A stretch of 64,000 nt of DNA from Anaerolineae bacterium. Lineage in GTDB: Bacteria; Chloroflexota; Anaerolineae; Anaerolineales; Anaerolineaceae. A model generated the notes under the pieces. The model was not told the origin of the DNA, made no database searches, and saw only the letters and a program-made list of their open reading frames with translations. This document shows positions 10,460 through 46,981 of this stretch, in pieces. The DNA lies in contig JABUFD010000001.1 in assembly GCA_013314735.1 (NCBI GenBank), forward strand, positions 124,001-188,000, in the 5' to 3' direction. Position 1 is the first letter of the stretch, and the number at the start of each line of letters is the position of its first letter. Both the position numbers and the translations under genes were made by a program.

Positions 10460-11992
10460 TCATGCGCCGGCAATACGCGGCATGCGGGTGGGTTCTTTTT
10501 GGATTTCAGCCTGGACAAATTTTAACAGCAAAGCTGCTTTTATGGCGTGGTAGTTCGGATCATCCCACCGATTGTGGATTTCAGCGGGATCTTTTTCCAG
10601 GTCGAACAACTCGCCATAGTCAGCGCCGCGGTACACCGTGATCTTATACCGGTCAGTAATAAAGGTACGCAGGTGGACGGTGGTGGGGTTATGGCGGTTC
10701 TCAACCATCACCCAATCTCTCCCTGGAGCTGTGCCGCGCCAACAGGGAAGCTGGCTGACGCTCTGCATCGCGCCGGGAACCTCAATCCCGGCGGCATCGA
10801 GGAAGGTGGCAGGCAGGTCAATGATGGATTGCAAGCCCTCTGTGACGGTTCCCGCCGGGATGACCCCGGGAAACCGGGCGATGAGCGGAACGCGCAACAG
10901 GTCTTCATAATGGAAGGCACCCTTGGCGATCAGGCCGTGTTGGCCGAGGAAATGCCCATGGTCGGTACTGAACACCACCAGGGTGTTTTCCGCGATTCCC
11001 AATGCCTCCAGTTTGTCGAGGATGCGCCCGATCTCCTGGTCAACCAGGCTGACCATGGCGTAATAGGCGGCCATACTGCGGCGCAGGACGGCTTCATCAT
11101 GCAGGTGGGAGTGGAAACCGTGGAGGGCATTGCCGCCATGCTCCTGGTAATCTGAAAAATCAGGGTGCGCCTGGCGGGTTCTGGCAAACTGGGGCGGCAT
11201 GGCATCGAATTCGCCGGGTGCAAAATGGCCAATTTCCATATCTTCCATGTCATACATCGAGAACCAGGGTTCCGGGACGACATAGGGCGGATGCGGGTCA
11301 AAGAACGAAGCCCACAGGAAGAAAGGCTGGTCCTGCTGGACGCACTGTTCGATATTGGCACAGGTGCGTTCGCCGACCCAGTGGGTGGGGTGGAATTCCT
11401 CCGGCAGGTTCCATTGCACCACGCCTTTCGTATAGACATCTTCATATTTGCGTTTGACGGTGGGGTAGTCTTCAAAGTAATCACGCCAGTTGGTGAGGCC
11501 TTTTTCTTCGCACCACAGGGCGTAATGCTGCCCGGCATGGCTTTCACTGGTGTGCATCCGGGCAGTTTCCACGTGGTTGAAGCCGTACCACGGGCCGTGG
11601 AAATTCCGCCAGAACTCGAGATCGCGTAAAATCGGCTGGCACTCGATCGATTCACTGCCAGGTACACTCGCCAGCGGTTGGAAATGGGCCTTTCCCACAA
11701 GCATCGATTGATACTCGTGGTTTTGAAAGAGGCCGCCAATGGTGGGGATATCTTCGGGCAATTTCACCCCGATCGCCCAGCAGCCGTGGGCTGATGGATA
11801 CAGCCCCGTGATCAGGCTGGCGCGGGTGGGGGAGCAGGTGGGGTTGGGACAATAGGCGCGGTCAAATCGTGTTCCTTCCTGTGCCAGACGGTCCAGGTTT
11901 GGTGTGTGGATTTTGGGATTGACTGAACCCAGGGTGGTGTAATGCTGCTGGTCTGAAGTGATAAACAGGATGTTGGGTTGTTTGGGCGGCAT
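10460..11992 (-). CDS. Type I sulfatase
   Basis: A 510-residue arylsulfatase-type hydrolase. The formylglycine signature CSPTRASLITG starts at Cys53, in the CxPxR context that is oxidised to formylglycine. Other family marks are NILFITSDQQ (metal-binding aspartates), STDHGHFLGQHGLIAKGAFHYEDLLRVPLI and VMVENRHNP. The open frame extends upstream to 12145, inside the ABC-F gene, but the ATG at 11990-11992 has GGGAG 6 nt before it and gives the proper N-terminus. There is no signal peptide, so it should act on imported sulfated substrates inside the cell. It lies 46 nt after the ABC-F gene and leads the peptidase and MBL genes. No sulfatase-maturing enzyme was recognised nearby. Confidence 0.92.
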   Translation of the reverse strand: MPPKQPNILFITSDQQHYTTLGSVNPKIHTPNLDRLAQEGTRFDRAYCPNPTCSPTRASLITGLYPSAHGCWAIGVKLPEDIPTIGGLFQNHEYQSMLVGKAHFQPLASVPGSESIECQPILRDLEFWRNFHGPWYGFNHVETARMHTSESHAGQHYALWCEEKGLTNWRDYFEDYPTVKRKYEDVYTKGVVQWNLPEEFHPTHWVGERTCANIEQCVQQDQPFFLWASFFDPHPPYVVPEPWFSMYDMEDMEIGHFAPGEFDAMPPQFARTRQAHPDFSDYQEHGGNALHGFHSHLHDEAVLRRSMAAYYAMVSLVDQEIGRILDKLEALGIAENTLVVFSTDHGHFLGQHGLIAKGAFHYEDLLRVPLIARFPGVIPAGTVTEGLQSIIDLPATFLDAAGIEVPGAMQSVSQLPCWRGTAPGRDWVMVENRHNPTTVHLRTFITDRYKITVYRGADYGELFDLEKDPAEIHNRWDDPNYHAIKAALLLKFVQAEIQKEPTRMPRIAGA

Positions 11993-12038
11993 GCTTGACT
12001 CCCGGGAGGATTTTGACAGCGGACACAGTGTTTCCGTA

Positions 12039-13694
12039 TCATTGTACCTGCTTTTTCTGCATTCCCTGGTAACTGCTGAAATTGCCCGGATACGAAACCA
12101 ACTGGCGGTTTTCGATGGCCACAATGCGGGTGCAGATTCGGTCAAGGAAGTAGCGGTCGTGGGAAACGATCAGCAGGCTGCCGACGAAATCCGCCAGGTT
12201 TTCCTCCAGCACTTCGGTGGAGGCGATATCGAGATGGTTGGTGGGTTCATCCATCAGCAGAAAATTTGCGCCGCTGAGCATCATCATGGCCAACTGCAGG
12301 CGGGAGCGTTCCCCGCCGGAAAGGTACCGGGCAGGATCGCGCATCTGCTTGTAACTGTAGCGAAATTTTGTCAGGAACGCCACCGCGCGTTGGTCCGACA
12401 TCGAGTGGGCATCCTGGATGTTGGCCACCAGGGTCTTCTCAAGGTCGAGGGTTTCATGCTGCTGCGAGTAGTAGGCGGTTGAAACGCTTGGACCCACGGT
12501 GATGCGGCCCTGGTCGTAAGGGGATTCTCCCAAAACAAACTTTAACAACATTGACTTTCCGCTGCCATTGGGCCCCACCAGGCCGACCCGCTCGCCGTGG
12601 AGGAGTTCCAGTTCCGCGCTGTCGAACAGGTTCAGTGCGGCTCTGTCATCTTCCGCCTGGAATGCATGGTTGAGATTCTCAATGCGCAGGACGAGGTTGC
12701 TGCCGCGCCAGCCGTTGAGGGTGAGGTCCATCTTTTTGGGTGGTTCCGGTGGCGCTTCCAGTTTCTCCATGTGTTCGATGCGTTTCAGGATGGCCTGGCC
12801 ACGGTACACCAGCTTTTCGTTGTTGTATTGCACACCCCATGTCAGCAGGCGTTTGGCGGCCTGTTCCAGGCGGGAAATTTCACGCTGCTGGTTTTCAAAA
12901 GCTTTGAGCGCGTTGGCGCGGCGGTGTTCCTTTTCATAGGCATATTCCGAATAACTGCCGGGGTAGAATGCCAGTTTGCCCATTTCCAGTTCGATGATCT
13001 CATCCACCACCAGGTCGAGCAGATAGCGGTCATGGGTAACAATCACAACTGCGCCCTGAAAACGGTTAATAAACCGCTGCAGGCGGTCTTTGCCTTCCAT
13101 GTCCAGGTGGTTGTCGGGTTCATCCAGCAGCAGCAGGTCTGGATCACTGAGGGTGAGGCGTGCCAGTGCCAGCAATTTCTTCTGTCCACCGCTTAATTTT
13201 TCCACCGGCAACGGCAGGTGAGCTTCCTCGAAGCCGAAATCGCACAGGGTGGAGCGCACGCGGCTTTCATAATTCAATCCGCCAGCATCTTCAAATTCCC
13301 GCAGGAACTGTTCCTGCTGGTTCAGCAGGCGTGAAAGTTTTTTTTCATTATAATAATTTTCCGGCTGTGCCAGGCTTTCCTCGATTTGCCGCAAATGGCT
13401 GTCAATCGACAGGATATCTGCGTTCGCCTGCAAAGCAGTGTGCCAGACGGTAGCCTGTTCCTGCAGGAAAGGCTCCTGTTCCAGGTAGGCGATCTTGGTG
13501 CCATTGTGGATCACAAGGCTGCCGCTGTCCGCTACCAGCTGGCCGGTAAGCAGCTTCAGCAGGGTGCTTTTACCGCAGCCGTTCACACCCAGCAAGCCCG
13601 TCACCCGGTTGGAATGGATCTCCCAATCGAGGTCATCCAGGATCAACTGGGTGGGGTAAGAAAATGTGATATGGTTCAATCGCGCGAGGATCAT
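12039..13694 (-). CDS. ABC-F family ATPase (translation factor type)
   Basis: A 551-residue protein with two ABC ATPase domains and no membrane segment, the architecture of ABC-F proteins that act on the ribosome. Domain 1 has Walker A GVNGCGKSTL, signature LSGGQKK and Walker B LLLLDEPDNHLD. Domain 2 has GPNGSGKSML, LSGGERSRLQLAMMML and FLLMDEPTNHLD. The charged linker between them (about 225-300) is the P-site tRNA interaction motif region. Whether it is a housekeeping EttA/Uup-like factor or an antibiotic-resistance type cannot be told. No good Shine-Dalgarno sequence precedes the ATG. It may lead the sulfatase operon. Confidence 0.93.
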   Translation of the reverse strand: MILARLNHITFSYPTQLILDDLDWEIHSNRVTGLLGVNGCGKSTLLKLLTGQLVADSGSLVIHNGTKIAYLEQEPFLQEQATVWHTALQANADILSIDSHLRQIEESLAQPENYYNEKKLSRLLNQQEQFLREFEDAGGLNYESRVRSTLCDFGFEEAHLPLPVEKLSGGQKKLLALARLTLSDPDLLLLDEPDNHLDMEGKDRLQRFINRFQGAVVIVTHDRYLLDLVVDEIIELEMGKLAFYPGSYSEYAYEKEHRRANALKAFENQQREISRLEQAAKRLLTWGVQYNNEKLVYRGQAILKRIEHMEKLEAPPEPPKKMDLTLNGWRGSNLVLRIENLNHAFQAEDDRAALNLFDSAELELLHGERVGLVGPNGSGKSMLLKFVLGESPYDQGRITVGPSVSTAYYSQQHETLDLEKTLVANIQDAHSMSDQRAVAFLTKFRYSYKQMRDPARYLSGGERSRLQLAMMMLSGANFLLMDEPTNHLDIASTEVLEENLADFVGSLLIVSHDRYFLDRICTRIVAIENRQLVSYPGNFSSYQGMQKKQVQ

Positions 13695-17473: not shown

Positions 17474-19642
17474 ATGGATGATAGCATCCAGGTGACAGAA
17501 CGAGTTGAACGGCTGCGGAAGCACGCATTATCGCGGCTCGATGAGGTGGCGCAGCCACGCCGTGAGATCCAATTGCTGGCTGCCCGTGGCTGGAGGGCAT
17601 CAGCCGGTGAGCCCTGGACGATCCTGCGCCGTGCACAAGAAAATGCCGCCATTCTGTGCGGGATGACCCCTGTGATTGACACGGATGAATGGATTGTTGG
17701 CAAAACTTGTTACCGCGCGTTGACCGGCGCGGAAGAGGCGGAACTGGATGCCTATCAACACAATACAGGGGCGTACCTGCCGGTTGTCGGTGGGCAGACG
17801 GCCCACATGGCGATCGACTTTGATCATTTGCTGCAAGTGGGCGTTGTTGGAATTCGGGAAGAAATCGAACAGTTTCGCACCACACTGAACCTGACCGACC
17901 CGCGACAGCAGGAACAGGATGCTTTCTACCGTGCATGCCTGATCAGTCTGGAGGCCCTGGTAACTGCTTCCCATCATTATGCCGCCCTGGCGATGGCGCA
18001 GGCACAAACTGCCTCCACATCGCAACGCCAGCAGGAATTGGAGCAGATTGCCGCGGTGTGCCGGCGGGTGCCGGAGTATCCAGCGGCCACCTTTCATGAA
18101 GCGATCCAATGCGCGCACTTTGTCACCTTCGCCCTGTGCTGCGCGCACCAGACTTTCCTGTTCCAATATGGGCACCCGGATCGGTATTTGCTTCCCTATT
18201 ACCGCAATGACGTCGCGCAGGGGACGATTACACCGGCGCAGGCACAGGAATGGGTCGACTGCCTGGCGGTGATGTTAACGGAATACACCCCGCAGCATCT
18301 GGCAGTGGGCTGGATGCTGGGCGGACGCGATGCGCAAGGGCGGGATGTGTGCAATGAATTGACCGAGCTGTTCCTGCGCTCTCTGCGGCATGTCCCCCTG
18401 GCGTACCCTTGCACCGGCCTGGCATGGACCAGTGACACGCCGCTGCCAATCCGTGAACTGGCTGCCGACCTGCTGGCGGGTGGGCTTTCCCATCCGGCAA
18501 TTTTTAATGATGCGGTCATCACCAAAGGTTTGATGGATCTTGGGCTGCCGTGGGAGGAAGCCTGCCTCTACCAGCAAAGCACGTGCGTGGAGATCACCCC
18601 CTGTGCTGCTTCCAATGTATATGTGGCCAGCCCGTACATCAATCTGCCGCAGTTGCTGCAGGACGTGCTGGGTGTACCGGGGCTTGGGGCAGAAGCACCT
18701 GCCAATCGCTGGGAACACCTGGACACATTCGAGGACTTGCTGGCTGCTTACCGGCAGCGGCTGACCCAGGCGATTGAGGCCGGGGTAATGGAACAGAATG
18801 CACTGCAAATGACCCGCCGTTATAACGGCGGCAAACCATTGCTCTCGTGCTTTGTGAATGATTGCCTGGCGCGCGGCAGGGATATTGACCACGGCGGTGC
18901 CCGTTATAACTGGATCGAGCCCTCTTTTGTCGGGCTGGCAAACCTGGTGGATGCGCTGCATGCTGTCCGGCAACTGGCGTACCAGAAAAAGTCGATCGGA
19001 CTGGCACAATTCAGCGAGATGTTGAAAGCCAATTATGCTGAATGTGAACCGCTGCGCTGCCAGATTGAATACCGGTTGGAGAAATACGGGAACGACATTG
19101 ACGCCGTTGATGACCTAGCGCAGATGGTTACCCATTGGGTGGCAGAGATCATCGGGCGTTACCGTAATTACCTGGACGGGCGCTTTGTATCGGGATTTTT
19201 CTGCTGGGTGATGCACGAACGCCTGGGACGCGAAACCGCGGCAACCGCTGATGGCCGCAAGGCCGGTTTCCCGTTGGGCGATGGTTCCGGCCCGGCGCAG
19301 GGCCGCGAACGGCAGGGGCCGACTGCCGCGATCCTCTCCACCACCAAGTGGGACCATAGTGCCCACATCGGTGGGATTGCCCTCAATTTAAAATTCATCC
19401 CGCCCCAACAGCGCGATGTTTTCCGCGCCCGTCTGGTGGACCTGATCGATACCTATATTGACCGCGGGGGTTTCGAGGTGCAGGTGAATGTGGTGGATCG
19501 CCAGAAGCTGGAAGCAGCCCGGGCGCATCCGCAGGAATACCAGGACCTGGTGGTGCGGATTGGCGGTTATAGCGATTACTTTGTGCGCCTGTCACCGGAG
19601 ATGCAGGATGAAGTGATCCTGCGCACAGAGCATGCCGCCTGA
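17474..19642 (+). CDS. Glycyl radical enzyme (pyruvate formate-lyase superfamily)
   Basis: A 722-residue glycyl radical enzyme. The catalytic Cys371 sits in STCVEITP; a CVE context places it with the eliminases and lyases (diol dehydratase, choline lyase, hydroxyproline dehydratase types), where the glutamate is a general base, rather than true PFL, which has a Cys-Cys pair. The C-terminal radical loop is VVRIGGYSDYF with Gly698 as the radical site, as in RVxGY motifs. The TCVEITPCAASN context was not recognised as a described class, so the substrate is unknown. The frame opens at 17336, but GAGGTGG before the ATG at 17474 supports this start. A TATAAT at 17441-17446 is a likely -10. A URO-D-fold gene follows after 13 nt. 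No radical-SAM activase was seen in the window. Confidence 0.9.
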   Translation: MDDSIQVTERVERLRKHALSRLDEVAQPRREIQLLAARGWRASAGEPWTILRRAQENAAILCGMTPVIDTDEWIVGKTCYRALTGAEEAELDAYQHNTGAYLPVVGGQTAHMAIDFDHLLQVGVVGIREEIEQFRTTLNLTDPRQQEQDAFYRACLISLEALVTASHHYAALAMAQAQTASTSQRQQELEQIAAVCRRVPEYPAATFHEAIQCAHFVTFALCCAHQTFLFQYGHPDRYLLPYYRNDVAQGTITPAQAQEWVDCLAVMLTEYTPQHLAVGWMLGGRDAQGRDVCNELTELFLRSLRHVPLAYPCTGLAWTSDTPLPIRELAADLLAGGLSHPAIFNDAVITKGLMDLGLPWEEACLYQQSTCVEITPCAASNVYVASPYINLPQLLQDVLGVPGLGAEAPANRWEHLDTFEDLLAAYRQRLTQAIEAGVMEQNALQMTRRYNGGKPLLSCFVNDCLARGRDIDHGGARYNWIEPSFVGLANLVDALHAVRQLAYQKKSIGLAQFSEMLKANYAECEPLRCQIEYRLEKYGNDIDAVDDLAQMVTHWVAEIIGRYRNYLDGRFVSGFFCWVMHERLGRETAATADGRKAGFPLGDGSGPAQGRERQGPTAAILSTTKWDHSAHIGGIALNLKFIPPQQRDVFRARLVDLIDTYIDRGGFEVQVNVVDRQKLEAARAHPQEYQDLVVRIGGYSDYFVRLSPEMQDEVILRTEHAA

Positions 19643-19655
19643 CGGTGGCCCCACG

Positions 19656-20774
19656 ATGAATTATCGGGAGCGTTTCGCCGCAACCATCCAACACCACCCG
19701 GTTGACCGGGTACCATTTGACCTTGCCGGTACCTCGCTGACCGGGATTGAGCACACGGAAACCACGGAAAAATTGCAACAACTGCTGGAACTGGATGGGC
19801 AAACACCTGCGTGGTACACAAAATTTGATGACCGCATTCTGCAAATTTTTGATATTGATTTTCGGCGGGTGGGCGATATCCTCAGCCCGGCCAGTTCGCT
19901 GGCACGTCCGGTCAGGGATGGGCGCTACACTGATTGTTGGGGAATTACCTACCAATATACCGGGTTATACTGGGATATCGTCAATCCACCGCTAAAAAAT
20001 GCCACTTGTGAAGATTTGGATGCCTATCCCTGGCCCCAGGCGGCAGACATTGACCGGCGGCAGATTGCCCTGTACCGTGAACAGGCCAAACACCTGTATC
20101 ATGAAACAGATTATGTGGTGGTAGGGGAGCATCCGGTGTTTGGTGTGTTTGAGTTGGGGTGCTGGATGTGTGGGTTTGATGCCTTCCTGCTGCGGATGGC
20201 ACAGGATCCGGGCTTCGTGCATGCCTTTTTTCGCAAGGTGCTGGCCTACCAGGTAGAAGTGATAGAGCTGTATTACGGTGCGATCGGTCCGTATCTTCAT
20301 CTGACCACCAGCGGGGACGATTTCGGGATGCAGAACCGTCCGTTTGTTTCCCCGGCCATGTTCCGGGAGATGATCAAATCTTACTACACGGAGCGAATCC
20401 GCCGTACGCGGCAGTTCACAGACGCGGTCTATTTTCACCATACCTGTGGGGCGGTCTTCCCCCTGATCCCTGACCTGGTGGACGCGGGGGTACAGATTTT
20501 GAACCCGATTCAACCCGGTGCGCGAGAAATGGAACCGGAAACGTTAAAAGCCAATTTTGGCAGTCAGCTGACCTTTTGGGGTGGGATTGATACCCAACAC
20601 CTCCTGCCGGAAGGTTCACCCGCAGATGTGCACGCAGGTGTGCAGCACGTGCTGGATGTGATGGCACACAACGGCGGGTATGTGCTGGCACCCGCGCATA
20701 ACCTGCAGCCAGACGTGCCGGCGGAAAATATCGCGGCGCTGTATGCAGCCGGCCGTGACTATTTTGCCGGGTAA
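19656..20774 (+). CDS. Uroporphyrinogen decarboxylase-fold protein (corrinoid methyltransferase-like)
   Basis: A 372-residue URO-D superfamily protein. Members are either haem-pathway decarboxylases or zinc methyltransferases moving methyl groups between corrinoid proteins and thiols (MtaA, MtbA, CmuA types). The N-terminus YRERFAATIQHHPVDRVPFDL is typical of the methyltransferase-like branch. HHTCGAVFPLIPDLVDAGV gives a His-x-Cys pair expected for zinc, and LTFWGGIDTQHLLPEGSPADV with the C-terminal GGYVLAPAHNLQPDVP is the conserved barrel end. It is 13 nt after the glycyl radical enzyme gene, so the two are almost certainly co-expressed. A methyl-group or C1 step coupled to a radical lyase is plausible but unproven. 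It converges on the FAD oxidoreductase gene. Confidence 0.85.
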   Translation: MNYRERFAATIQHHPVDRVPFDLAGTSLTGIEHTETTEKLQQLLELDGQTPAWYTKFDDRILQIFDIDFRRVGDILSPASSLARPVRDGRYTDCWGITYQYTGLYWDIVNPPLKNATCEDLDAYPWPQAADIDRRQIALYREQAKHLYHETDYVVVGEHPVFGVFELGCWMCGFDAFLLRMAQDPGFVHAFFRKVLAYQVEVIELYYGAIGPYLHLTTSGDDFGMQNRPFVSPAMFREMIKSYYTERIRRTRQFTDAVYFHHTCGAVFPLIPDLVDAGVQILNPIQPGAREMEPETLKANFGSQLTFWGGIDTQHLLPEGSPADVHAGVQHVLDVMAHNGGYVLAPAHNLQPDVPAENIAALYAAGRDYFAG

Positions 20775-20801
20775 TTGGTCGGTTGATCGATTGTAGTTTG
20801 A

Positions 20802-22376
20802 TCAGTCTTTCAGACTGTCGAGTGCCTCCTGCGGCCATTCGGTGGCTACCCCGCTGCGGTGCAGTTCCGCCTGGAAGGCTTTGAATTGTACCAGATCGGA
20901 ATGCACCCGGGCAGGTGTTAAACCGTTGGCGCAGCACCAGGCAGCCAACCGCCCGGCGGCTTCGCCGATGGACCATTCCACCGGCTGCAGGCGGTAAGCA
21001 CCATTGCTGAGGTGGGTGGTGTTGATGTTCTTGCAGGCGGCGACCAGGTTATCACATGCCGCGGGAATCATTGCACCGAGTGGGATCTGGAAGGGGAGCG
21101 TGGGGGCGTACATACTGGTATCATCGCCCACGGCGGGGTGCAGGTCCATTGCGTACCAGCCAATCCCGACCGAATCCGGGAAGGCGGCCTGGTCTTTGCC
21201 GGGGTTGGTTTCCCGCAGGATGTCCTGGGCGGTGATACGGCGCAATCCTTTGATGCGGCGCGATTCCCGCCAGTAGGGCGCCATCGAGAGCCCGTCGGAT
21301 GTTCCCAATGCTTCCGGCAGCAGGCGCAGTTCTGGGTATCCGAAGCCGCCTTCATCGCGCGGGGCTTCAGTTTGCAGCCAGTACAGGAAACCCAATGAGA
21401 GGCGTTTTGCTTCTTCGAGAATTTGCTGCTGGCGTGCAGGGGGCTGGTCGATCGGGCTGGCCCAATGATAGTCATTGCCATGCCAGTTGATCAGGGCAAT
21501 ATCATTCCGTCCGCTGTTGGGCGCCAATAATTCGGCATCGAACACGCGCCGGTAGGTCCAGAATGGCAGCGGGCTTTGTGGGGTGGCTTTGAAAAAATGG
21601 AAGGGCCGCGGGTTGCCTTCCCGATCGAACAAGGTCAGGCTGTAGGGCTGGCGCTCACGAAATTCTTCATATTCGCGCGGTTTTTCGATGGTATGGTTCT
21701 CACCCGGGCAGAATTCAACCAGGAAACAATAGGTGAAGCTCTGAATCCGTTCCGGATGCGGGCCATCCGGGCTGGCATCGACCTCTCCGGTGTCATCCCG
21801 GGCTTCAGCGCCGGTGGTATAAGGCAGCCCTGCCAGCGGAAGCAGGTCGCCGGTATCGGTTGCATCGAGGAAATAGCGTGCCCGTATTTCGATAGGCGCG
21901 CCGGCTTGATCCAGGCGGACAGCTTCCAGGTGATCGGGGCTGCCAGTACAGGAAACCGGTTGGGCATTCAGCAGAATCTCGATCTGTCCGCTGTTGATAT
22001 AGGGTTGCAACATGCCCTGCAGCACTTCCAGCCCGACTTTTGGTTCAAAACACAGGCTGCTGACCCAGCCATTCCCCGGGTTCAACGGGGCACCATCCGG
22101 CATGACATCTGGCGCCTGGTAACGGTCCTGGTAATAGCGGCGGATTTGTGCGCGGAAATCGGCATAATTGCGGGTGGGTGCCACCTGTTCGATCAGGCGG
22201 TTCTCATCCAACGGGGCGACTGCCTGGCTTGTCACCTGTCCGCCAATCCAGGCACAGGCTTCGGTCAGGATCACACGGGCATCGGATTGGGCCGCGGCCA
22301 GTGCTGCGGCCACACCGCCCAGGCTTCCGCCGATCACAGCCACATCACATTTGAGAGTTCTGTTGATTTGGGTCAT
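20802..22376 (-). CDS. FAD-dependent oxidoreductase
   Basis: A 524-residue flavoprotein. The N-terminus CDVAVIGGSLGGVAAALAAAQ is a dinucleotide-binding GxGxxG fold, followed by ILTEACAWIGGQVTSQAVAP, and further on YFLDATDTGDLLPLAG, typical of the 'FAD-dependent oxidoreductase' family that includes many glycan- and carboxylate-acting proteins. The C-terminus DNLVAACKNINTTHLSNGAYRLQPVEWSIGEAAG is the conserved second FAD contact region. The substrate is unknown. The open frame extends to 22616, but the ATG at 22374-22376 has AGGAG 5 nt before it. It faces the glycyl radical enzyme pair and could share its pathway, though the opposite strand means separate regulation. Confidence 0.87.
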   Translation of the reverse strand: MTQINRTLKCDVAVIGGSLGGVAAALAAAQSDARVILTEACAWIGGQVTSQAVAPLDENRLIEQVAPTRNYADFRAQIRRYYQDRYQAPDVMPDGAPLNPGNGWVSSLCFEPKVGLEVLQGMLQPYINSGQIEILLNAQPVSCTGSPDHLEAVRLDQAGAPIEIRARYFLDATDTGDLLPLAGLPYTTGAEARDDTGEVDASPDGPHPERIQSFTYCFLVEFCPGENHTIEKPREYEEFRERQPYSLTLFDREGNPRPFHFFKATPQSPLPFWTYRRVFDAELLAPNSGRNDIALINWHGNDYHWASPIDQPPARQQQILEEAKRLSLGFLYWLQTEAPRDEGGFGYPELRLLPEALGTSDGLSMAPYWRESRRIKGLRRITAQDILRETNPGKDQAAFPDSVGIGWYAMDLHPAVGDDTSMYAPTLPFQIPLGAMIPAACDNLVAACKNINTTHLSNGAYRLQPVEWSIGEAAGRLAAWCCANGLTPARVHSDLVQFKAFQAELHRSGVATEWPQEALDSLKD

Positions 22377-22548
22377 CGCTGCTCCTGTTGCTTGTTCCAT
22401 CATTACGCTACCCTGATTATAAATGGATTTTCCCGCCCCGCGAGGAAGCCCTGGCCCGGACAGGATTTCCTTTCTGTTGCTTGTTTCAGTATAATTGGGG
22501 CTGAACCAATTGGCATGGCAATAACGAAATTGCCCTAAGGAGTTTTCG

Positions 22549-36530: not shown

Positions 36531-37433
36531 ATGACCCCCAACCAAGAAATCATCCGTCCCCTGGTGGAGTTAAAACCCGAGTGCGATTTCTTCGTCGGTA
36601 TCGACAGCGACGGCTGTGCCTTTGATACCATGGAGGTGAAACATAAGGAATGCTTCATCCCTAATATCGTGAAATTTTGGGGGTTGGCAGCCGTGTCCAA
36701 GTATGCCCGTGATGCGGCAGAGTTTGTGAACCTGTATTCCAAATGGCGCGGGGTCAACCGCTGGCCGGCATTGACGATGAGCCTGGATTTACTGGAAGAA
36801 TGGGATGAGGTGAAACGCCGCGGTGTACATCTGCCGGCGATGCCGAATGTGCGCGCGTTTGTTGCACAGAAGGAAGTCCCATTGAGCAACGAGGGGTTGA
36901 AGACTTTCATGGAGATTCACCCAGATGCTGCGGATCTGTTAATTGCATGGGAATGGACGAATGCTGTGAATGCTGCCGTAGCTGAAATGGTGCATGATGT
37001 TCCGCCTTTCCCGTACCTGCGGGAAAGCTTACACAAGCTAAAGGGTCAGGCTGATATGATGGTGGTATCCGCTACACCGGTGGAAGCGCTGACCCGCGAA
37101 TGGGAAGAGCACGCGATTGATTCGTTTGTGCGGGTCATTGCCGGGCAGGAAATGGGGAGTAAAGCAGAACATCTGCGCCTGGCTGCCAAAGGCAAGTATG
37201 CCGATGACCATATCCTGATGATTGGCGACGCGCCGGGAGATATGCGTGCGGCCCATGCCAACGGGGCCTTGTTCTACCCTATCAATCCAGGCCATGAGGA
37301 ACAAAGCTGGCAGCGTTTTTATCAAGAAGCCGCCGACCGGTTCCTTGCCGGAACCTACAAAGGTGCATATGAGGCGGCATTGATCGCCGAGTTTGAGCAA
37401 TATCTGCCGGAGACACCGCCATGGAAGAACTGA
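36531..37433 (+). CDS. HAD-family hydrolase, first gene of a sugar-acid operon
   Basis: A 300-residue haloacid-dehalogenase-fold protein. Motif I is VGIDSDGCAFD with Asp25 (nucleophile) and Asp27. Motif II is VVSATP. The conserved lysine may be that in QEMGSKAEHL, and motif IV is ILMIGDAPGDMRAAHANGA. A helical cap of about 110 residues (about 40-160) contains WRGVNRWPALTMSLDLLEEW. It is probably a phosphatase of a phosphorylated metabolite, with substrate unknown. It is transcribed from the promoter at 36420-36448. The next gene overlaps by 13 nt, so coupling is tight. Confidence 0.85.
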   Translation: MTPNQEIIRPLVELKPECDFFVGIDSDGCAFDTMEVKHKECFIPNIVKFWGLAAVSKYARDAAEFVNLYSKWRGVNRWPALTMSLDLLEEWDEVKRRGVHLPAMPNVRAFVAQKEVPLSNEGLKTFMEIHPDAADLLIAWEWTNAVNAAVAEMVHDVPPFPYLRESLHKLKGQADMMVVSATPVEALTREWEEHAIDSFVRVIAGQEMGSKAEHLRLAAKGKYADDHILMIGDAPGDMRAAHANGALFYPINPGHEEQSWQRFYQEAADRFLAGTYKGAYEAALIAEFEQYLPETPPWKN

Positions 37434-38719
37434 AACCCGGTCAGGAATTTGGGTTTGTCGGAATCGGAGACAGAGCCCATTTTCTAGGGGAAACGGAAAT
37501 TCGGGCGGTAGTATCGCGTGCGCTTAAATCGATGCAGCTGGCTGGCAAACGCCTGCTGGTGTTGATTCCTGATGGTACGCGCACAATGCCGATGCCGTTG
37601 ATGTTTCGCCTGCTGCAGGAGATGGCAGCGCCCCAGGCCGCACAGATGGATTTCCTGGTTGCCCTGGGAACCCACATGCCGATGGATGATCGGCAGCTCA
37701 GCAAGCTGCTGGGCACGGCTGTGGTTGATGGATGGGTTGGAAAGAGCAGGATCATCAACCATCAATGGGACAACCCCGCAACGTTTACCCAGCTGGGGGT
37801 GATCCCGGCTGCAGAGATCGAAACCCTCAGCCGGGGCATGCTCTCCATGGACGTACCGGTTCGCCTGAACAGGCTGGTGCTGGAATATGACCAGATCCTG
37901 ATCTGCGGTCCGGTTTTCCCGCATGAGGTGGTAGGATTTTCCGGTGGGAACAAGTACTTCTTCCCCGGGATTGCCGGTGACGAGATCATTCATTTCACCC
38001 ATTGGTTGGGCGCGTTAATCACCAGTTATGAGATCATCGGCAGCGGGTATACCCCGGTACGGGCGGTGATTGATCGTGCTGCTGCAATGATTCCCACCCC
38101 AACTGCCTGCCTGGCGCTGGTGGGGGTGCATGAGGGTGTACACGGCGTTTACTTTGGCAGTGCCGGGGAAGCCTGGCAGGCTGCCGCAACGCTTTCGGCG
38201 CAGGTGCATATCACCTATCTCGACCAGCCTGTGCAACGCGTACTGGCGATCATGCCTGAATTGTATGATGATTTCTGGACTGGGGCCAAGGGGATGTACA
38301 AAATGGAACCGGTAATCGCTGACGGTGGAGAAGTGGTGATCTACGCCCCGAATATCACTGAAATCTCCTATGTTCATGGCAAAGTGATTGAATCCATCGG
38401 CTACCATTGCCGGGATTATTTTGTGAAGCAATGGGATACCTACAAACACCTGCCCTGGGGTGTGCTGGCCCATTCAACCCATGCACGTGGGATGGGATCA
38501 TATGATGCCGAAACCGGCCTGGAGCAACCGCGGGTGCGGGTTACCCTGGCAACCGGCATCCCGAAACACATCTGTGATCAGGTCAATTTGGGATACCTGG
38601 ACCCGGCATCCATTCACCTGGATGAATGGGAAGGCCGTGAGGAGGATGGCATCCTGGTGGTTCATCGCGCAGGTGAGATGCTTTATCGTCTGCGGTCAGA
38701 GAAAAAGGAGATTCTATGA
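37421..38719 (+). CDS. LarA-family nickel-pincer racemase/epimerase homologue
   Basis: A 432-residue member of the LarA (lactate racemase) family. LarA enzymes hold a nickel pincer nucleotide on a lysine. Here the key residues fall at the same spacing as in LarA. ALGTHMPM gives His85 and GPVFPHEV gives His168. FSGGNKYFFPGIAG gives Lys178, and HFTHW gives His194; 168 to 178 and 178 to 194 match the 10 and 16 residue steps of His174, Lys184 and His200. PDGTRTMP is another family mark. Some LarA homologues act on sugar acids such as gluconate; the genes downstream fit that. The pincer-making larB, larC and larE genes are not in the window. It overlaps the PFK gene by 4 nt. Confidence 0.87.
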   Translation: MEELKPGQEFGFVGIGDRAHFLGETEIRAVVSRALKSMQLAGKRLLVLIPDGTRTMPMPLMFRLLQEMAAPQAAQMDFLVALGTHMPMDDRQLSKLLGTAVVDGWVGKSRIINHQWDNPATFTQLGVIPAAEIETLSRGMLSMDVPVRLNRLVLEYDQILICGPVFPHEVVGFSGGNKYFFPGIAGDEIIHFTHWLGALITSYEIIGSGYTPVRAVIDRAAAMIPTPTACLALVGVHEGVHGVYFGSAGEAWQAAATLSAQVHITYLDQPVQRVLAIMPELYDDFWTGAKGMYKMEPVIADGGEVVIYAPNITEISYVHGKVIESIGYHCRDYFVKQWDTYKHLPWGVLAHSTHARGMGSYDAETGLEQPRVRVTLATGIPKHICDQVNLGYLDPASIHLDEWEGREEDGILVVHRAGEMLYRLRSEKKEIL

Positions 38720-40002
38720 ACAAGAATGTACTGGTGGCACAATCCGGCGGTCCTTCGCCGGTGATCAATGGTACATTGCGCGGCATTGTTGAAATGTGCA
38801 AAGCAAAACCAGGTAATTTTGGCACCGTGTACGGCGCCTGGCATGGGATTGAGGGTGTGTTGACCGAGGAGTTGCTCGATCTCTCCGCCCAGGTGGATGA
38901 AGAAATTGCCCTGTTAAGCGTTACCCCGGCGGCTGGCGCGATCGGAACTTGCCGATACAAATTGAAAAGCAGCCAGCATCAGGATTTCCAGCGGGTGATC
39001 GATGTACTCAAAGCACATCATATCGGTTACTTCTTCTACATCGGCGGCAACGATTCGATGGACACTGCCCATAAAGTGGCGCAGCTGGCACAGGAGAACG
39101 GCATGGAACTGGTGGCGGTTGGCGGGCCGAAAACCATTGACAACGATGTGGGTGACCAGGAATTCAAGCTGATCGACCATACCCCGGGATATGGTTCGGT
39201 GGCACGCTACTGGGCATTGAATGTGCAAAATGCCAACCAGGAGAACCTGGGTTCCTATCCGCCAGATCCGGTGTTGGTGATGCAGGCGATGGGACGCAAG
39301 ATCGGCTTCATCCCGGCGGCGGCACGCCTGGCAGACCCGAACCGCGAATTGCCGCTGCAAATCTATATGCCCGAAGCCGGGTTGACCCTGCCCGAGATGG
39401 CTGACCGCGTCAATGATGAATTGAAACGCAGCAAGCGCGTGATGGTGGTGGTCAGTGAAGGATTCGACGTGGGCGATTTGGGCGCGCGCAAGGATAGTTT
39501 TGGCCACATCCAATTCTCTGCCAGTGAAACCACAGTGGAGCAGGTGGTGGTCAATTACCTGAATTCCGTTGGCCTGGCTGCACGTGGTTCCGCCCGTGGC
39601 AATGTGCCCGGAACAGACCAACGCAACAGCATGGTGTATGCTTCCACGGTCGATATGGAAGAGGCTTACCAGCTGGGCATCAAGGCAGTCGAAGTGGCAC
39701 TGCAGGATGGCAGCGGTTATATGAGCACCATTCACCGACTCCCGGGCAGCCAGTATGCTGTATACTACGATAAAGTGCCGCTGGAACTGGTTGCCAATTC
39801 CGAACGGACATTCCCGCAGGCTTGGATTGCGGAGAATAAGGTGGATGTAACGGATGATTTCATTCGCTACGCCATGCCGTTGATCGGCAGGGATTGGCCC
39901 AGTATTCCGTTGGTGAACGGTTTGCAGCGTTTCAGCCGCATGCAACCACTTTTTGCGCCGCAGCAATTGCCGGCTTATGTGCCGGAAGCGTACCGCGCAT
40001 AA
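38716..40002 (+). CDS. 6-Phosphofructokinase, PPi-dependent type
   Basis: A 428-residue phosphofructokinase. It phosphorylates fructose 6-phosphate. The motif VGGPKTIDNDVGDQEF (Asp142 as the base, Lys139) is of the PPi-dependent kind; ATP enzymes have GTIDND. The phosphate loop is IGGNDSMDTAHK (110-117), where Asn112 replaces the usual first aspartate and Asp113 the glycine of ATP enzymes. The first residues NVLVAQSGGPSPVINGTLRG are typical. The start is an ATGA overlap with the LarA-like gene, with AAGGAG 7 nt ahead. It may give the operon an exit toward glycolysis from a sugar acid. Confidence 0.93.
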   Translation: MNKNVLVAQSGGPSPVINGTLRGIVEMCKAKPGNFGTVYGAWHGIEGVLTEELLDLSAQVDEEIALLSVTPAAGAIGTCRYKLKSSQHQDFQRVIDVLKAHHIGYFFYIGGNDSMDTAHKVAQLAQENGMELVAVGGPKTIDNDVGDQEFKLIDHTPGYGSVARYWALNVQNANQENLGSYPPDPVLVMQAMGRKIGFIPAAARLADPNRELPLQIYMPEAGLTLPEMADRVNDELKRSKRVMVVVSEGFDVGDLGARKDSFGHIQFSASETTVEQVVVNYLNSVGLAARGSARGNVPGTDQRNSMVYASTVDMEEAYQLGIKAVEVALQDGSGYMSTIHRLPGSQYAVYYDKVPLELVANSERTFPQAWIAENKVDVTDDFIRYAMPLIGRDWPSIPLVNGLQRFSRMQPLFAPQQLPAYVPEAYRA

Positions 40003-43827: not shown

Positions 43828-44373
43828 TTATTTTACCTGCATTGGCAGCCCGGCGACCATTAACAGTACATGGTCGGCAATCGATGCGATGTGTTGGTTG
43901 GCACGGCCCAGGCCGTCGCGGTACAACCTTCCCAATTTGAATGCCGGTACCACTCCCAATCCGACCTCGTTGGAGATGATGAACCAATCTGCATGGTTGT
44001 GTCGAATGGCGGTTTCCAGGCTGTTGATCTCGGCATCAATCACAGCTTGAAAATCATCGATGGTGGCTTTTTCAGGGTCCGGCAGGCGCATCAGCAGGTT
44101 GCTGATCAGCATGGTCAGACAATCCAGGATGACCACCGGGTGCCGGATCGGTTCCTGTTGGAAGCATTGCGCCAGATCCCAGGGGGCTTCGATCGTCTGC
44201 CAGTCTGCCGGGCGTTCCGCCTGGTGGCGCTGGATGCGTTGGCGCATATCATCATCACCGGCTGTGGCAGTGGCGATGAAAGTGACCGGCTGCCCGTAAG
44301 CCTGGGCGAGGCGGAGGGCGTGGGTGCTTTTCCCACTGCGCGCGCCACCGAGGATGAATGTTAGGATTGCCAT
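43828..44373 (-). CDS. cobU: Adenosylcobinamide kinase / adenosylcobinamide-phosphate guanylyltransferase
   Basis: A 181-residue bifunctional enzyme of the cobamide pathway, adding phosphate and then GMP to adenosylcobinamide. It has LGGARSGKSTHALRLAQ (P-loop), TATAGDDDMRQRIQRHQAERP (the guanylylated-histidine region), WQTIEAPWDL and VVILDCLTMLISNLLM, and ISNEVGLGVVP. The start at 44373 overlaps the stop of the CbiR-like gene by 13 nt, with AAAGGA ahead. Open frame upstream is only overlap. Its position at the end of cobT-cobS-CbiR-like-cobU fits late-step assembly. Confidence 0.95.
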   Translation of the reverse strand: MAILTFILGGARSGKSTHALRLAQAYGQPVTFIATATAGDDDMRQRIQRHQAERPADWQTIEAPWDLAQCFQQEPIRHPVVILDCLTMLISNLLMRLPDPEKATIDDFQAVIDAEINSLETAIRHNHADWFIISNEVGLGVVPAFKLGRLYRDGLGRANQHIASIADHVLLMVAGLPMQVK

Positions 44374-45173
44374 GCTGTTGAAGTCCTTTCCAGTGAAGAT
44401 CGAAGTGCTGCCAGGCTGCTGGTGAAATCCTCGTTGCCAAACACTTCCATGGTGAGGATACCATGAAAGCCTGTTTCCTGCAGGAGGGTCATCAGGGAAT
44501 CCATTGCTGCCTGGGGGATTTGAAACAATGTTTGGTGATCTGTCCCGTGCAGGCAGGCATGCAGATGGATCACCTGTGCCTGTGGCAGGTGCTGCTGCAG
44601 GAAGTTCATCGGCCGGGGATGGCGGTATTTCCACAGGTGGCCGACATCAATGCACAACGGCAGGCCGGCTGTTTTTGCCAGGCTTGCAATGCTCTCCGGC
44701 GGGTAACTTTCGAGATTCTCAACGCATAACGGAACGCTGTCCGGGAGCAAGCGCTGTACGGTTTCCAACGCTTCCAGTGCCTGGGATTCCCATTGGGCAA
44801 GCAGGAAGGGATCCCATCCGTAGCGGCGCTGCCTGCGCCAAACCCAATCATCCACATGGGCTATCACGGCGGAGATTGGCAGACCCTCGACCGATTCCAG
44901 TACTCTGGCAGCCATGGTGAGTGAGTGCCGGTTGGGTTGCAGACTCAGATCAAGCGGCAGGTGGACCGAATAGGTCAAATGATACGCCTTGCCGATCTCC
45001 GCCAGGGCGCAGCGTTCTGCGGGTGAGGGCAGGTTGCTGGTGCCCTCTGGCAGGTCGAACAGCACCAGTTCCATATCATCCACTTTCCCGGCCAGGAAAC
45101 TGGCATTATCGCACAGCCCGGATTCGACAACATACGACGTAGCGCCGAGGGAGAATGGGGGTTCAGGAACCAT
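44361..45173 (-). CDS. TIM-barrel protein in the cobamide cluster, CbiR-like
   Basis: A 270-residue protein of the xylose-isomerase-like TIM-barrel (AP endonuclease 2) family. Likely metal ligands are in LCVENLES (Glu), LCIDVGHLWKY (Asp, His), QVIHLHACLHG (His) and GILTMEVFGNED (Glu). It lies between cobS and cobU, overlapping cobU by 13 nt. A TIM-barrel protein of this fold, CbiR, removes the lower ligand of cobamides and so permits remodelling. Gene context makes CbiR the best guess; a sugar isomerase is the alternative. Confidence 0.65.
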   Translation of the reverse strand: MVPEPPFSLGATSYVVESGLCDNASFLAGKVDDMELVLFDLPEGTSNLPSPAERCALAEIGKAYHLTYSVHLPLDLSLQPNRHSLTMAARVLESVEGLPISAVIAHVDDWVWRRQRRYGWDPFLLAQWESQALEALETVQRLLPDSVPLCVENLESYPPESIASLAKTAGLPLCIDVGHLWKYRHPRPMNFLQQHLPQAQVIHLHACLHGTDHQTLFQIPQAAMDSLMTLLQETGFHGILTMEVFGNEDFTSSLAALRSSLERTSTAWQS

Positions 45174-45188
45174 CAGCCGCCATCAATG

Positions 45189-45938
45189 TTATCGGATTGT
45201 GAAAAGCACAAGGGCGAACAGTTCGCAAACCTCAACCGTCATCCCGATCACATCGCCGGTGATGCCGCCCAGGCGGCGCCTGGCGGTACGGGCAATCAAC
45301 ATGGTGAGGACGGCAAGCAGCAGGATGACAACCACTGCTGGCAGCCCGATCAGGGCAATTCCGGTGATGCACAACAGCACAGGCAGCAGTGAGGAAAGGA
45401 TGATGGTTTTCCTGGTCAAGCCCAGTTTGAAATCATCCGCCATACCGCCGGGACGAGCGGATGCCTGGGTGGCGGTTAGCAGGATCATCATCCAGCGTGA
45501 CAAGACGATTGTGTTTGCCAGGATCCATGCCAGTTGCCAGAACGGCAGTGTCTGCAATGTGTACAGGGCAGCTGTTTTGGCGTACAGGAAAAGGATCAGG
45601 CTCACCAGGGCAAAACTGCCCACCCGGGAATCTTTCAGAATTTCCAGGCGGCGCTCGATCGGTACCGGCAGCGGGAGGGCATCAGCACAATCAGCAAGAC
45701 CGTCCAGGTGCAGGAAACCGGTCAGGCCTGCCCACAATGCCAGGGTGAGTACGGCAGTCAGCGGCAGGGGCAGGAACCACCGCAGGAGGCTGTTGGCCGC
45801 GATCACCAGTACCGCCAGCAGGAGACCGACCCAGGGGAAATACACTGCTGCCCGGCCGTTATCACCGGGTTGGTAATCTGCTGCCTGGCGGGTGGGAAGA
45901 ACAGTTAAAAAACTGACAGCAAGGCGCAGGTATTTCAT
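45189..45938 (-). CDS. cobS: Adenosylcobinamide-GDP ribazoletransferase (cobalamin synthase)
   Basis: A 249-residue polytopic membrane protein that joins adenosylcobinamide-GDP to the alpha-ribazole unit in the last assembly step. The family signature GFLHLDGLADCADAL and the following RRLEILKDSRVGSFALVSL are present. About six membrane segments are seen. Its start overlaps the stop of cobT by 4 nt, so translation is coupled. The CbiR-like gene starts 15 nt after its end. Confidence 0.95.
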   Translation of the reverse strand: MKYLRLAVSFLTVLPTRQAADYQPGDNGRAAVYFPWVGLLLAVLVIAANSLLRWFLPLPLTAVLTLALWAGLTGFLHLDGLADCADALPLPVPIERRLEILKDSRVGSFALVSLILFLYAKTAALYTLQTLPFWQLAWILANTIVLSRWMMILLTATQASARPGGMADDFKLGLTRKTIILSSLLPVLLCITGIALIGLPAVVVILLLAVLTMLIARTARRRLGGITGDVIGMTVEVCELFALVLFTIR

Positions 45939-46981
45939 GCAGATGTGGCAATGCCGGCTTCAGTGAAGGTTGCCATCTCGTTCAGCACGCGGCAGGCGGC
46001 ATCGATGATATTAAAAGCCAATGCGGCTCCGGTGCCCTCACCCAGGCGCAAGTTAAGGTCCAGGATAGGCTTTATGCCGATGCGCTCCAGCACCGCCTGT
46101 TGGCCGATCTCGACTGACTGGTGGCCGGCAAGGAGGAACAGGCGGACTTCGGGGTATAACTCATACGCAACCAGGGCGGCAGCAGAGGAGATCAGTCCAT
46201 CCACCACCACCGGAATGCGGTTACGTGCGGCACCGAGGATCACACCCACCAACCCGGCAATTTCCAGGCCGCCAACCTTGGTGAGAACATCCAGCGGATC
46301 ACACGGGTCGGGCTGGTTGACTGTAATTGCCTTATTGATGGCGGCAACTTTGCGGTTCAGACCATCGTTGTCCACGCCGGTACCGCGTCCGGTAACAGAA
46401 GCTGCCGGCAGCCCGGTGATGCAGGAAATGATGGCGGAGGAAGCTGTGGTGTTGCCGATACCCATTTCACCGGTGGCAATCAGGCGGACGCCGTCCCGGG
46501 CTTCTTCCTCCGCGATCTGCATCCCGATCCGTATGGCTTTCAGGCATTGCTCGGGTGTCATGGCTGGCCCTTCGGTCATGTTGGCTGTGCCGTAAGCCAC
46601 CTTGCAATGATCCAGGCCGTGATCATCAGGAAAATGGTAATTGACGCCAATATCCACAACGCGGACACTGGCTTCGGCATACCGTGAAATGGCGTTGATG
46701 GCTGCCTTACCCTGTAAGAATCCCTTGACCATCATCGGGGTGACCTCTGCCGGGTAGGCACTCACACCTTCGGCACACACACCGTGGTCTGCGGCCATGA
46801 TAATGACTGATTTTTTATCAACAACGGGACGGGGATTCCCCTGGATGCCGGCGATCTGGATGGAAATTTCTTCCAGTCGGCCCAGGCTGCCTGCAGGTTT
46901 TGTCAGGGCATTCTGACGGTTCCGCGCATCGTTTGCGGCATGATGATCAAACGGCGGGATGGTTGGTGCTTCAAACTGCAT
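45935..46981 (-). CDS. cobT: Nicotinate-nucleotide-dimethylbenzimidazole phosphoribosyltransferase
   Basis: A 348-residue enzyme that activates the lower-ligand base to alpha-ribazole phosphate. It has KPAGSLGRLEEISIQIAGIQG at the N-terminus, AADHGVCAEGVSAYPAEVTPMMV, GEMGIGNTTASSAI, and LRLGEGTGAALAF with the catalytic glutamate. It leads the operon cobT-cobS-CbiR-like-cobU. The upstream region (to 47213) holds no recognisable cobalamin riboswitch; an inverted repeat at 47069-47102 could be an operator. Confidence 0.96.
   Translation of the reverse strand: MQFEAPTIPPFDHHAANDARNRQNALTKPAGSLGRLEEISIQIAGIQGNPRPVVDKKSVIIMAADHGVCAEGVSAYPAEVTPMMVKGFLQGKAAINAISRYAEASVRVVDIGVNYHFPDDHGLDHCKVAYGTANMTEGPAMTPEQCLKAIRIGMQIAEEEARDGVRLIATGEMGIGNTTASSAIISCITGLPAASVTGRGTGVDNDGLNRKVAAINKAITVNQPDPCDPLDVLTKVGGLEIAGLVGVILGAARNRIPVVVDGLISSAAALVAYELYPEVRLFLLAGHQSVEIGQQAVLERIGIKPILDLNLRLGEGTGAALAFNIIDAACRVLNEMATFTEAGIATSA

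Follow-up and report, generated by a model that had tools for sequence, protein, structure and literature searches.

A glycyl radical enzyme of an unclassified clade in an Anaerolineae bacterium: a candidate dehydratase-type eliminase for polyol or sugar derivatives

The stretch of DNA analysed here, called the window (64,000 nucleotides; positions 124,001 to 188,000 of contig JABUFD010000001.1, assembly GCA_013314735.1), comes from an Anaerolineae bacterium and encodes a glycyl radical enzyme (GRE) of a clade that shares the motif STCVE[I] and is unclassified; none of the curated models searched assigns it a reaction. We see about an even chance that this enzyme is a radical 1,2-eliminase of the dehydratase type, belonging to an uncharacterised clade, acting on a polyol or sugar derivative and activated in trans. 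Among the oxygen-sensitive radical eliminases of anaerobes, GREs are the principal ones, and every class solved so far has filled a gap in metabolism, the cases in point being trimethylamine, hydroxyproline and isethionate. Along the same line, solving the STCVE clade could uncover a radical route that is widespread in the anaerobic fermentation of glycans, and could make clear in what way a single activase serves numerous GREs.

Active site and class placement

An earlier note on the window had described a radical enzyme with Cys371 in a TCVE motif and Gly698 in RIGGY, a description borne out by the open reading frame, the Pfam domains and the fold (Table 1). PF02901 and PF01228 both score over their cut-offs, and the two radical-bearing positions are in place. 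The AlphaFold2 model has a mean predicted local distance difference test (pLDDT) score of 91.4, and its best matches in the Protein Data Bank (PDB) are glycerol dehydratase (GD) and propanediol dehydratase (PD), at a template modelling (TM) score of 0.92, so that the assignment to the GRE superfamily goes beyond chance. In the VIA comparison the model superposes on GD and PD with Z values of 42.5-43.0 and a root-mean-square deviation of 2.0-2.2 over 709 aligned positions. The VIA Z values of all GRE eliminases fall in a narrow range (about 37-43), and the fold therefore picks neither a class nor a substrate; the structural comparison that had been proposed thus places GD and PD nearest, yet finds the GRE eliminases too alike for a choice of class.

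The active-site residues were read from an alignment with glycerol dehydratase 1r8w and then checked over 60 full-length members of the clade. The equivalents of His164, Cys433 and Glu435 of GD (here His111, Cys371 and Glu373) are kept in all 60, in agreement with the claim that the enzyme is eliminase-like. The position of His164, which we take to be the general acid of GD, is occupied by Asp in the CutC-like reference and by His in the STCVE clade; of the two bond cleavages previously suggested, C-O cleavage of the dehydratase type is favoured on this ground and C-N cleavage disfavoured. By contrast with the conserved trio, the residues that presumably bind the diol in GD and PD are replaced: the Ser282 equivalent is Leu in 55 of the 60 members (Leu229 here), 59 members have Ala or Thr at the Asp447 equivalent (Ala here), and the His281 equivalent is lost, being Phe228 in the window GRE. 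In related eliminases, it is the conserved Glu that takes the proton from the OH of the substrate (PMC6453916). Since His, Cys and Glu are kept and the diol-site residues are replaced, the enzyme is predicted to be a dehydratase-type 1,2-eliminase with a pocket different from that of the diol dehydratases.

With regard to class, the window GRE scores far under the cut-off of every GRE equivalog in NCBIfam (score/cut-off in bits: PRK09983 of the PflD type, 335/1109; two sulfopropanediol dehydratase models, 335/1000 and 323/1000; HypD, 321/1100; CutC, 284/1050; indoleacetate decarboxylase, 247/1100), and the subfamily model PFL2-3 gives 423/678. Its best solved relatives are the propanediol, glycerol and choline enzymes. 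In a tree of 157 sequences, a sample whose deep branches are weakly supported, the window GRE falls with a support of 1.0 in the clade sharing STCVE[I], and the PD (GrpM), PflD, YbiW, HypD, CutC-like and IslA-like references are all outside it, the CutC-like and IslA-like ones having been assigned by motif and neighbours only (TauE/SafE and an iron alcohol dehydrogenase, Fe-ADH, in the IslA-like case). The window GRE lies off the branch that holds the one IslA-like reference, itself assigned by neighbours only. The enzyme had been called unclassified from the outset, and so it stays. A literature search with limited coverage of subscription journals found no paper on the STCVE clade, which is apparently a large and unstudied GRE family.

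Relatives, operons and the activase

At E<=1e-100, the STCVE clade is found in 36 of 197 genomes of the class Lentisphaeria, in 37 of 291 genomes of the phylum Armatimonadota and in 3 of 400 genomes of the window's own phylum; in the window's order, a clade-level match (about 39% identity or more) occurs in 2 of 400 genomes, the window's own included. The hosts are mostly bacteria that degrade sugar polymers; one carrier of a clade member is Oligosphaera ethanolica DSM 24202 (locus L019). Most GREs listed for other genomes of the window's order resemble HypD and have an activase linked to them.

The neighbourhood survey took in 57 loci and 451 kb of flanking DNA. Twelve loci had an activase, 10 another GRE, 8 an IclR regulator, 5 an Fe-ADH and 2 a DeoC gene. 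Both activases (12 observed, 0.2 expected) and additional GREs (13 observed, 0.6 expected) stand far above expectation beside clade members, and for this reason the operon can be regarded as real in the Lentisphaeria and Armatimonadota lineages, where the clade GRE often shares an operon with one or two more GREs as well as with an activase, an IclR regulator and an Fe-ADH. The fullest form, at L178 and L175, comprises Fe-ADH, IclR, GRE-A (GGCTE), GRE-B (the STCVE clade), GRE-C (VGCYE) and an activase (Table 1); GRE-A, GRE-C and the other GRE types tested reach no curated cut-off. Elsewhere the company varies: GRE-B, a second GRE, an activase and a zinc alcohol dehydrogenase (ADH) in G1004; ketose-bisphosphate aldolase, PHP, DeoC and a XylB-like FGGY kinase at L179 and L016; RhaB, Ldh_2 and L-rhamnose isomerase (RhaA) at L165 and L166; and a glycoside hydrolase (GH) locus beside the clade GRE of G106. 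A search for class II aldolases in the genomes with rhaA/rhaB linkage gave no indication of a missing rhamnulose-phosphate aldolase. A GRE paralog at L180 (5469-7553, minus strand) carries the catalytic motif TACNRV, without Cys-x-Glu, and the radical motif RKFGFSEYF.

The window genome (4.09 Mb, 95.5% complete) encodes exactly one Gly_radical protein, namely the window GRE. The look-up of an activase advised in the earlier note yielded one TIGR02494 protein above cut-off, unlinked to the GRE (contig C6, 244447-245304) and co-directional with GH94, DeoC, GH130, GH106-like, GH3 and apiosidase-like genes. In the activase tree this C6 enzyme is sister (0.985) to activases of Lentisphaeria GRE-B operons, and it is separate from the HypD, PD, PflC and YbiW activases. 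Moreover, the closest GRE in the Chloroflexota search (G731, 58% identity) has an activase directly upstream. Because it is the sole activase of the genome, and because of its grouping with the activases of GRE-B operons and the linkage seen in G731, the C6 enzyme likely activates the window GRE in trans.

Unlinked activases are common in genomes carrying the STCVE clade. In a genus mate (G396), an activase orthologous to the C6 enzyme (67% identity over 98 aa) is preceded by a different GRE, of the GCGEY type, and the DeoC at that locus is 73% identical to the DeoC of the window genome; the genes there (L072, contig C261) are consecutive, namely DeoC, a 732-aa GRE with the motif PYGCGEY, of unassigned type, and the activase. 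Five genomes (G401, G407, G408, G410 and G415) encode 9-17 GREs as against 1-6 activases, many of which stand alone (ratios such as 9:1, 10:1 and 16:2), which suggests that one activase serves many GREs.

Proposed reaction and alternative readings

In the reaction that we favour, the single unlinked C6 activase would install the radical on Gly698, which would pass it on to Cys371 as a thiyl radical. The thiyl would then abstract a hydrogen from a hydroxyl-bearing carbon, Glu373 would take the OH proton and His111 would protonate the leaving OH on the next carbon, with loss of water; upon re-donation of the hydrogen, a deoxy-carbonyl product (deoxy-aldehyde or ketone) would be released, to pass to an aldolase and/or an alcohol dehydrogenase. 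The most likely substrate is a polyol, sugar or sugar-phosphate derivative originating from glycan degradation. Dehydration of the terminal diol of a polyol might give a 2-deoxy-aldose, which a kinase and DeoC would split, the aldehyde going to an ADH; the DeoC, kinase and ADH genes found as neighbours would agree with such a route. Precedent for sugar-type ligands comes from PDB titles, where YbiW and PflD have anhydrohexitol-6-phosphates bound. Several points weigh against this assignment. The substrate is one that we infer, the neighbours of many clade members say nothing of function, and sugar genes abound in the genomes of glycan degraders in any case; in addition, the flanks of the GRE in the window contain no sugar-specific operon, its activase is on a different contig, and the weak deep branches of the tree count here as well.

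A tentative idea, for which we see perhaps one chance in a few, is that of a multi-GRE catabolic system, in which two or three paralogous GREs (types B, A and C, with STCVE, GGCTE and VGCYE, respectively), encoded in one operon with one shared activase, would one after the other perform radical eliminations on the same molecule, be it a sugar, a polyol or something related. Orphan GREs (up to 17 per 1-6 activases) would be served in trans, and the window species would possess a stripped-down version made of one GRE and a remote activase.

It is unlikely that the enzyme is a divergent glycerol or 1,2-propanediol dehydratase at work in the fermentation of deoxysugars such as rhamnose or fucose. 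GD and PD are indeed its closest matches in fold and in sequence, RhaA and RhaB adjoin the GRE at L165 and L166, Fe-ADH occurs in several operons, and GRE propanediol dehydratases are found with fucose/rhamnose microcompartments (PMC6620236); yet the diol-site Ser and Asp are replaced clade-wide and His281 is lost, the window GRE lies outside the PD clade, and several paralogous GREs in one operon would be redundant.

The earlier note had proposed that radical cleavage of a C-N or C-O bond by the GRE frees a methyl-bearing group and that the product of the adjacent URO-D gene moves the methyl to a corrinoid, which appears improbable in the light of what follows. The arrangement itself is as it had been described, the URO-D gene with its His-Thr-Cys running in the same direction and separated from the GRE stop by 13 nt. 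Its product adopts the URO-D fold and matches MtaA best in Foldseek; it has an HxC motif, and the cobamide genes reported in the window (CbiR, CobS and CobT) are real. The best NCBIfam model, MtaA/CmuA, nevertheless gives 45/235 bits, and in an alignment with MtaA (4ay7) the third ligand of the zinc site, a Cys, is replaced by His, leaving His-x-Cys...His in place of the His-x-Cys...Cys pattern of corrinoid methyltransferases. Within the URO-D superfamily, S-methyltransferases use His-Cys-Cys, and the Cys ligands may differ among O-methyltransferases (PMC10418091). Corrinoid proteins were to be looked for, and the genome does have them, with five PF02607 matches, none of which is near the GRE/URO-D pair; a corrinoid-protein gene is adjacent at 1 of 20 surveyed URO-D loci (on C4, next to a different URO-D gene). 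The absence of the CutC-type Asp from the GRE also speaks against the proposal.

The URO-D genes form, furthermore, a very large paralogous family, with 30 PF01208 genes spread over many loci of the window genome and more than 44 in many relatives. Nine were observed in the GRE flanks of the survey against 2.6-4.9 expected, and tight same-strand GRE/URO-D pairs occur at 2 of the 57 loci against 0.26-0.49 expected (P 0.03-0.09), the second being that of G106, from the same order; the two paired URO-D proteins are only ~31% identical. The earlier note had named beforehand, as what would speak against it, a URO-D neighbour not conserved in other genomes, and this is largely what was found. The notion of a conserved GRE/URO-D unit was rejected on account of this rarity in URO-D-rich genomes, and the URO-D gene is probably not a fixed partner of the GRE; a functional pair may nonetheless exist in the window's order.

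Several URO-D genes of the expanded family adjoin sulfatase-like genes (L194, L197 and L203). A family of ~420 aa is found near GREs (L247:7082-8344, L251:2310-3587 and L033:6203-7501), and its L247 member, for which there is no Pfam match, does match a URO-D hidden Markov model built in the analysis.

That the GRE gene was acquired and is inactive, no cognate activase recognising it, seems very improbable: the sporadic distribution in the order and phylum would agree with acquisition, as would an activase that is unlinked and was inherited with a different GRE in the genus mate, yet the frame is fully open, the catalytic residues are all intact, the pattern of GC content at third codon positions (GC3) is clean, and the C6 activase falls in the clade that serves GRE-B operons, in a setting where unlinked activases are common. 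Hardly any weight is given to a known class in other guise (HypD, CutC, IslA, sulfopropanediol dehydratase, PFL or arylacetate decarboxylase), which shares the fold and accounts for the partial scores, but would require an enzyme that is outside the reference clades, far under the curated cut-offs, and without both the adjacent Cys pair of PFL and the CutC Asp to belong to one of them.

Of the remaining genes, the opposed FAD oxidoreductase is present as reported. No relative of it lies beside a GRE at the other loci of the first survey (L001-L041), and later loci gave a single weak and distant match near a GRE (L259, 24% identity). Being convergent, and having no GRE-flanking relative in the first survey, it was discarded as a partner and probably lies outside the GRE unit. 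Farther off in the window, at 37421-40002, a LarA-like protein, whose nearest model is the nickel-dependent hexonate epimerase (187/500 bits), is encoded with a 4-nt overlap with a diphosphate-dependent phosphofructokinase gene, and a sulfatase-family gene (10460-12145; arylsulfatase model, 248/481 bits) stands upstream of the region.

Table 1. Positions of the GRE, its key residues and neighbouring genes in the window, and of the three-GRE operons at two other loci
Feature	Position	Strand	Remarks
STCVE-clade GRE	17474..19642	+	722 aa; PFL-like 356 bits, Gly_radical 89 bits (Pfam)
Alternative, longer starts of the GRE	17462, 17438, 17342, 17336	+	
His111, putative general acid	17804..17806	+	aligned to glycerol dehydratase His164 (1r8w)
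Cys371 (thiyl radical site) and Glu373	18584..18592	+	in QSTCVEI
Gly698, glycyl radical site	19565..19567	+	in VRIGGYSDYF
URO-D superfamily gene	19656..20774	+	372 aa; PF01208, 76.5 bits; contains HHTCG
HTC motif of URO-D	about 20439-20447	+	
FAD-dependent oxidoreductase	20802..22379	-	PF12831 (FAD_oxidored), 311 bits; convergent
Cobamide remodelling genes CbiR, CobS, CobT	44361-46981		
Tandem three-GRE operon with shared activase	L178:2808-9993; L175:5413-14199		no GRE assignable to a curated family

Comparison with known systems

The URO-D neighbour shares with MtaA/CmuA the fold and the HxC motif; it differs in its low score with their model, in having His rather than Cys at the third zinc position, and in an operon without a corrinoid protein. 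As to the GRE, HypD has the same His, Cys and Glu and performs dehydratase chemistry, and HypD-like enzymes are common in the window's order, yet HypD forms a separate clade, has a linked activase and the motif GCVETGAFG, and its model gives the window GRE 321 of the 1100 bits needed. GD and PD (1r8w, 5i2g) have the same fold and the equivalents of Cys-x-Glu and His164; at ~30% identity, the window GRE is roughly 60-120 residues shorter than they are, the counterparts of their Ser282, His281 and Asp447 are replaced, and no neighbouring microcompartment genes were noticed for the GRE of the STCVE clade. YbiW and PflD (8id7, 8id0), finally, differ in sequence (25-31% identity), clade and neighbours, whereas they have in common with the window GRE the fold, the His/Cys/Glu trio and, with the anhydrohexitol-6-phosphates bound to them, a ligand or context of the sugar-phosphate type.

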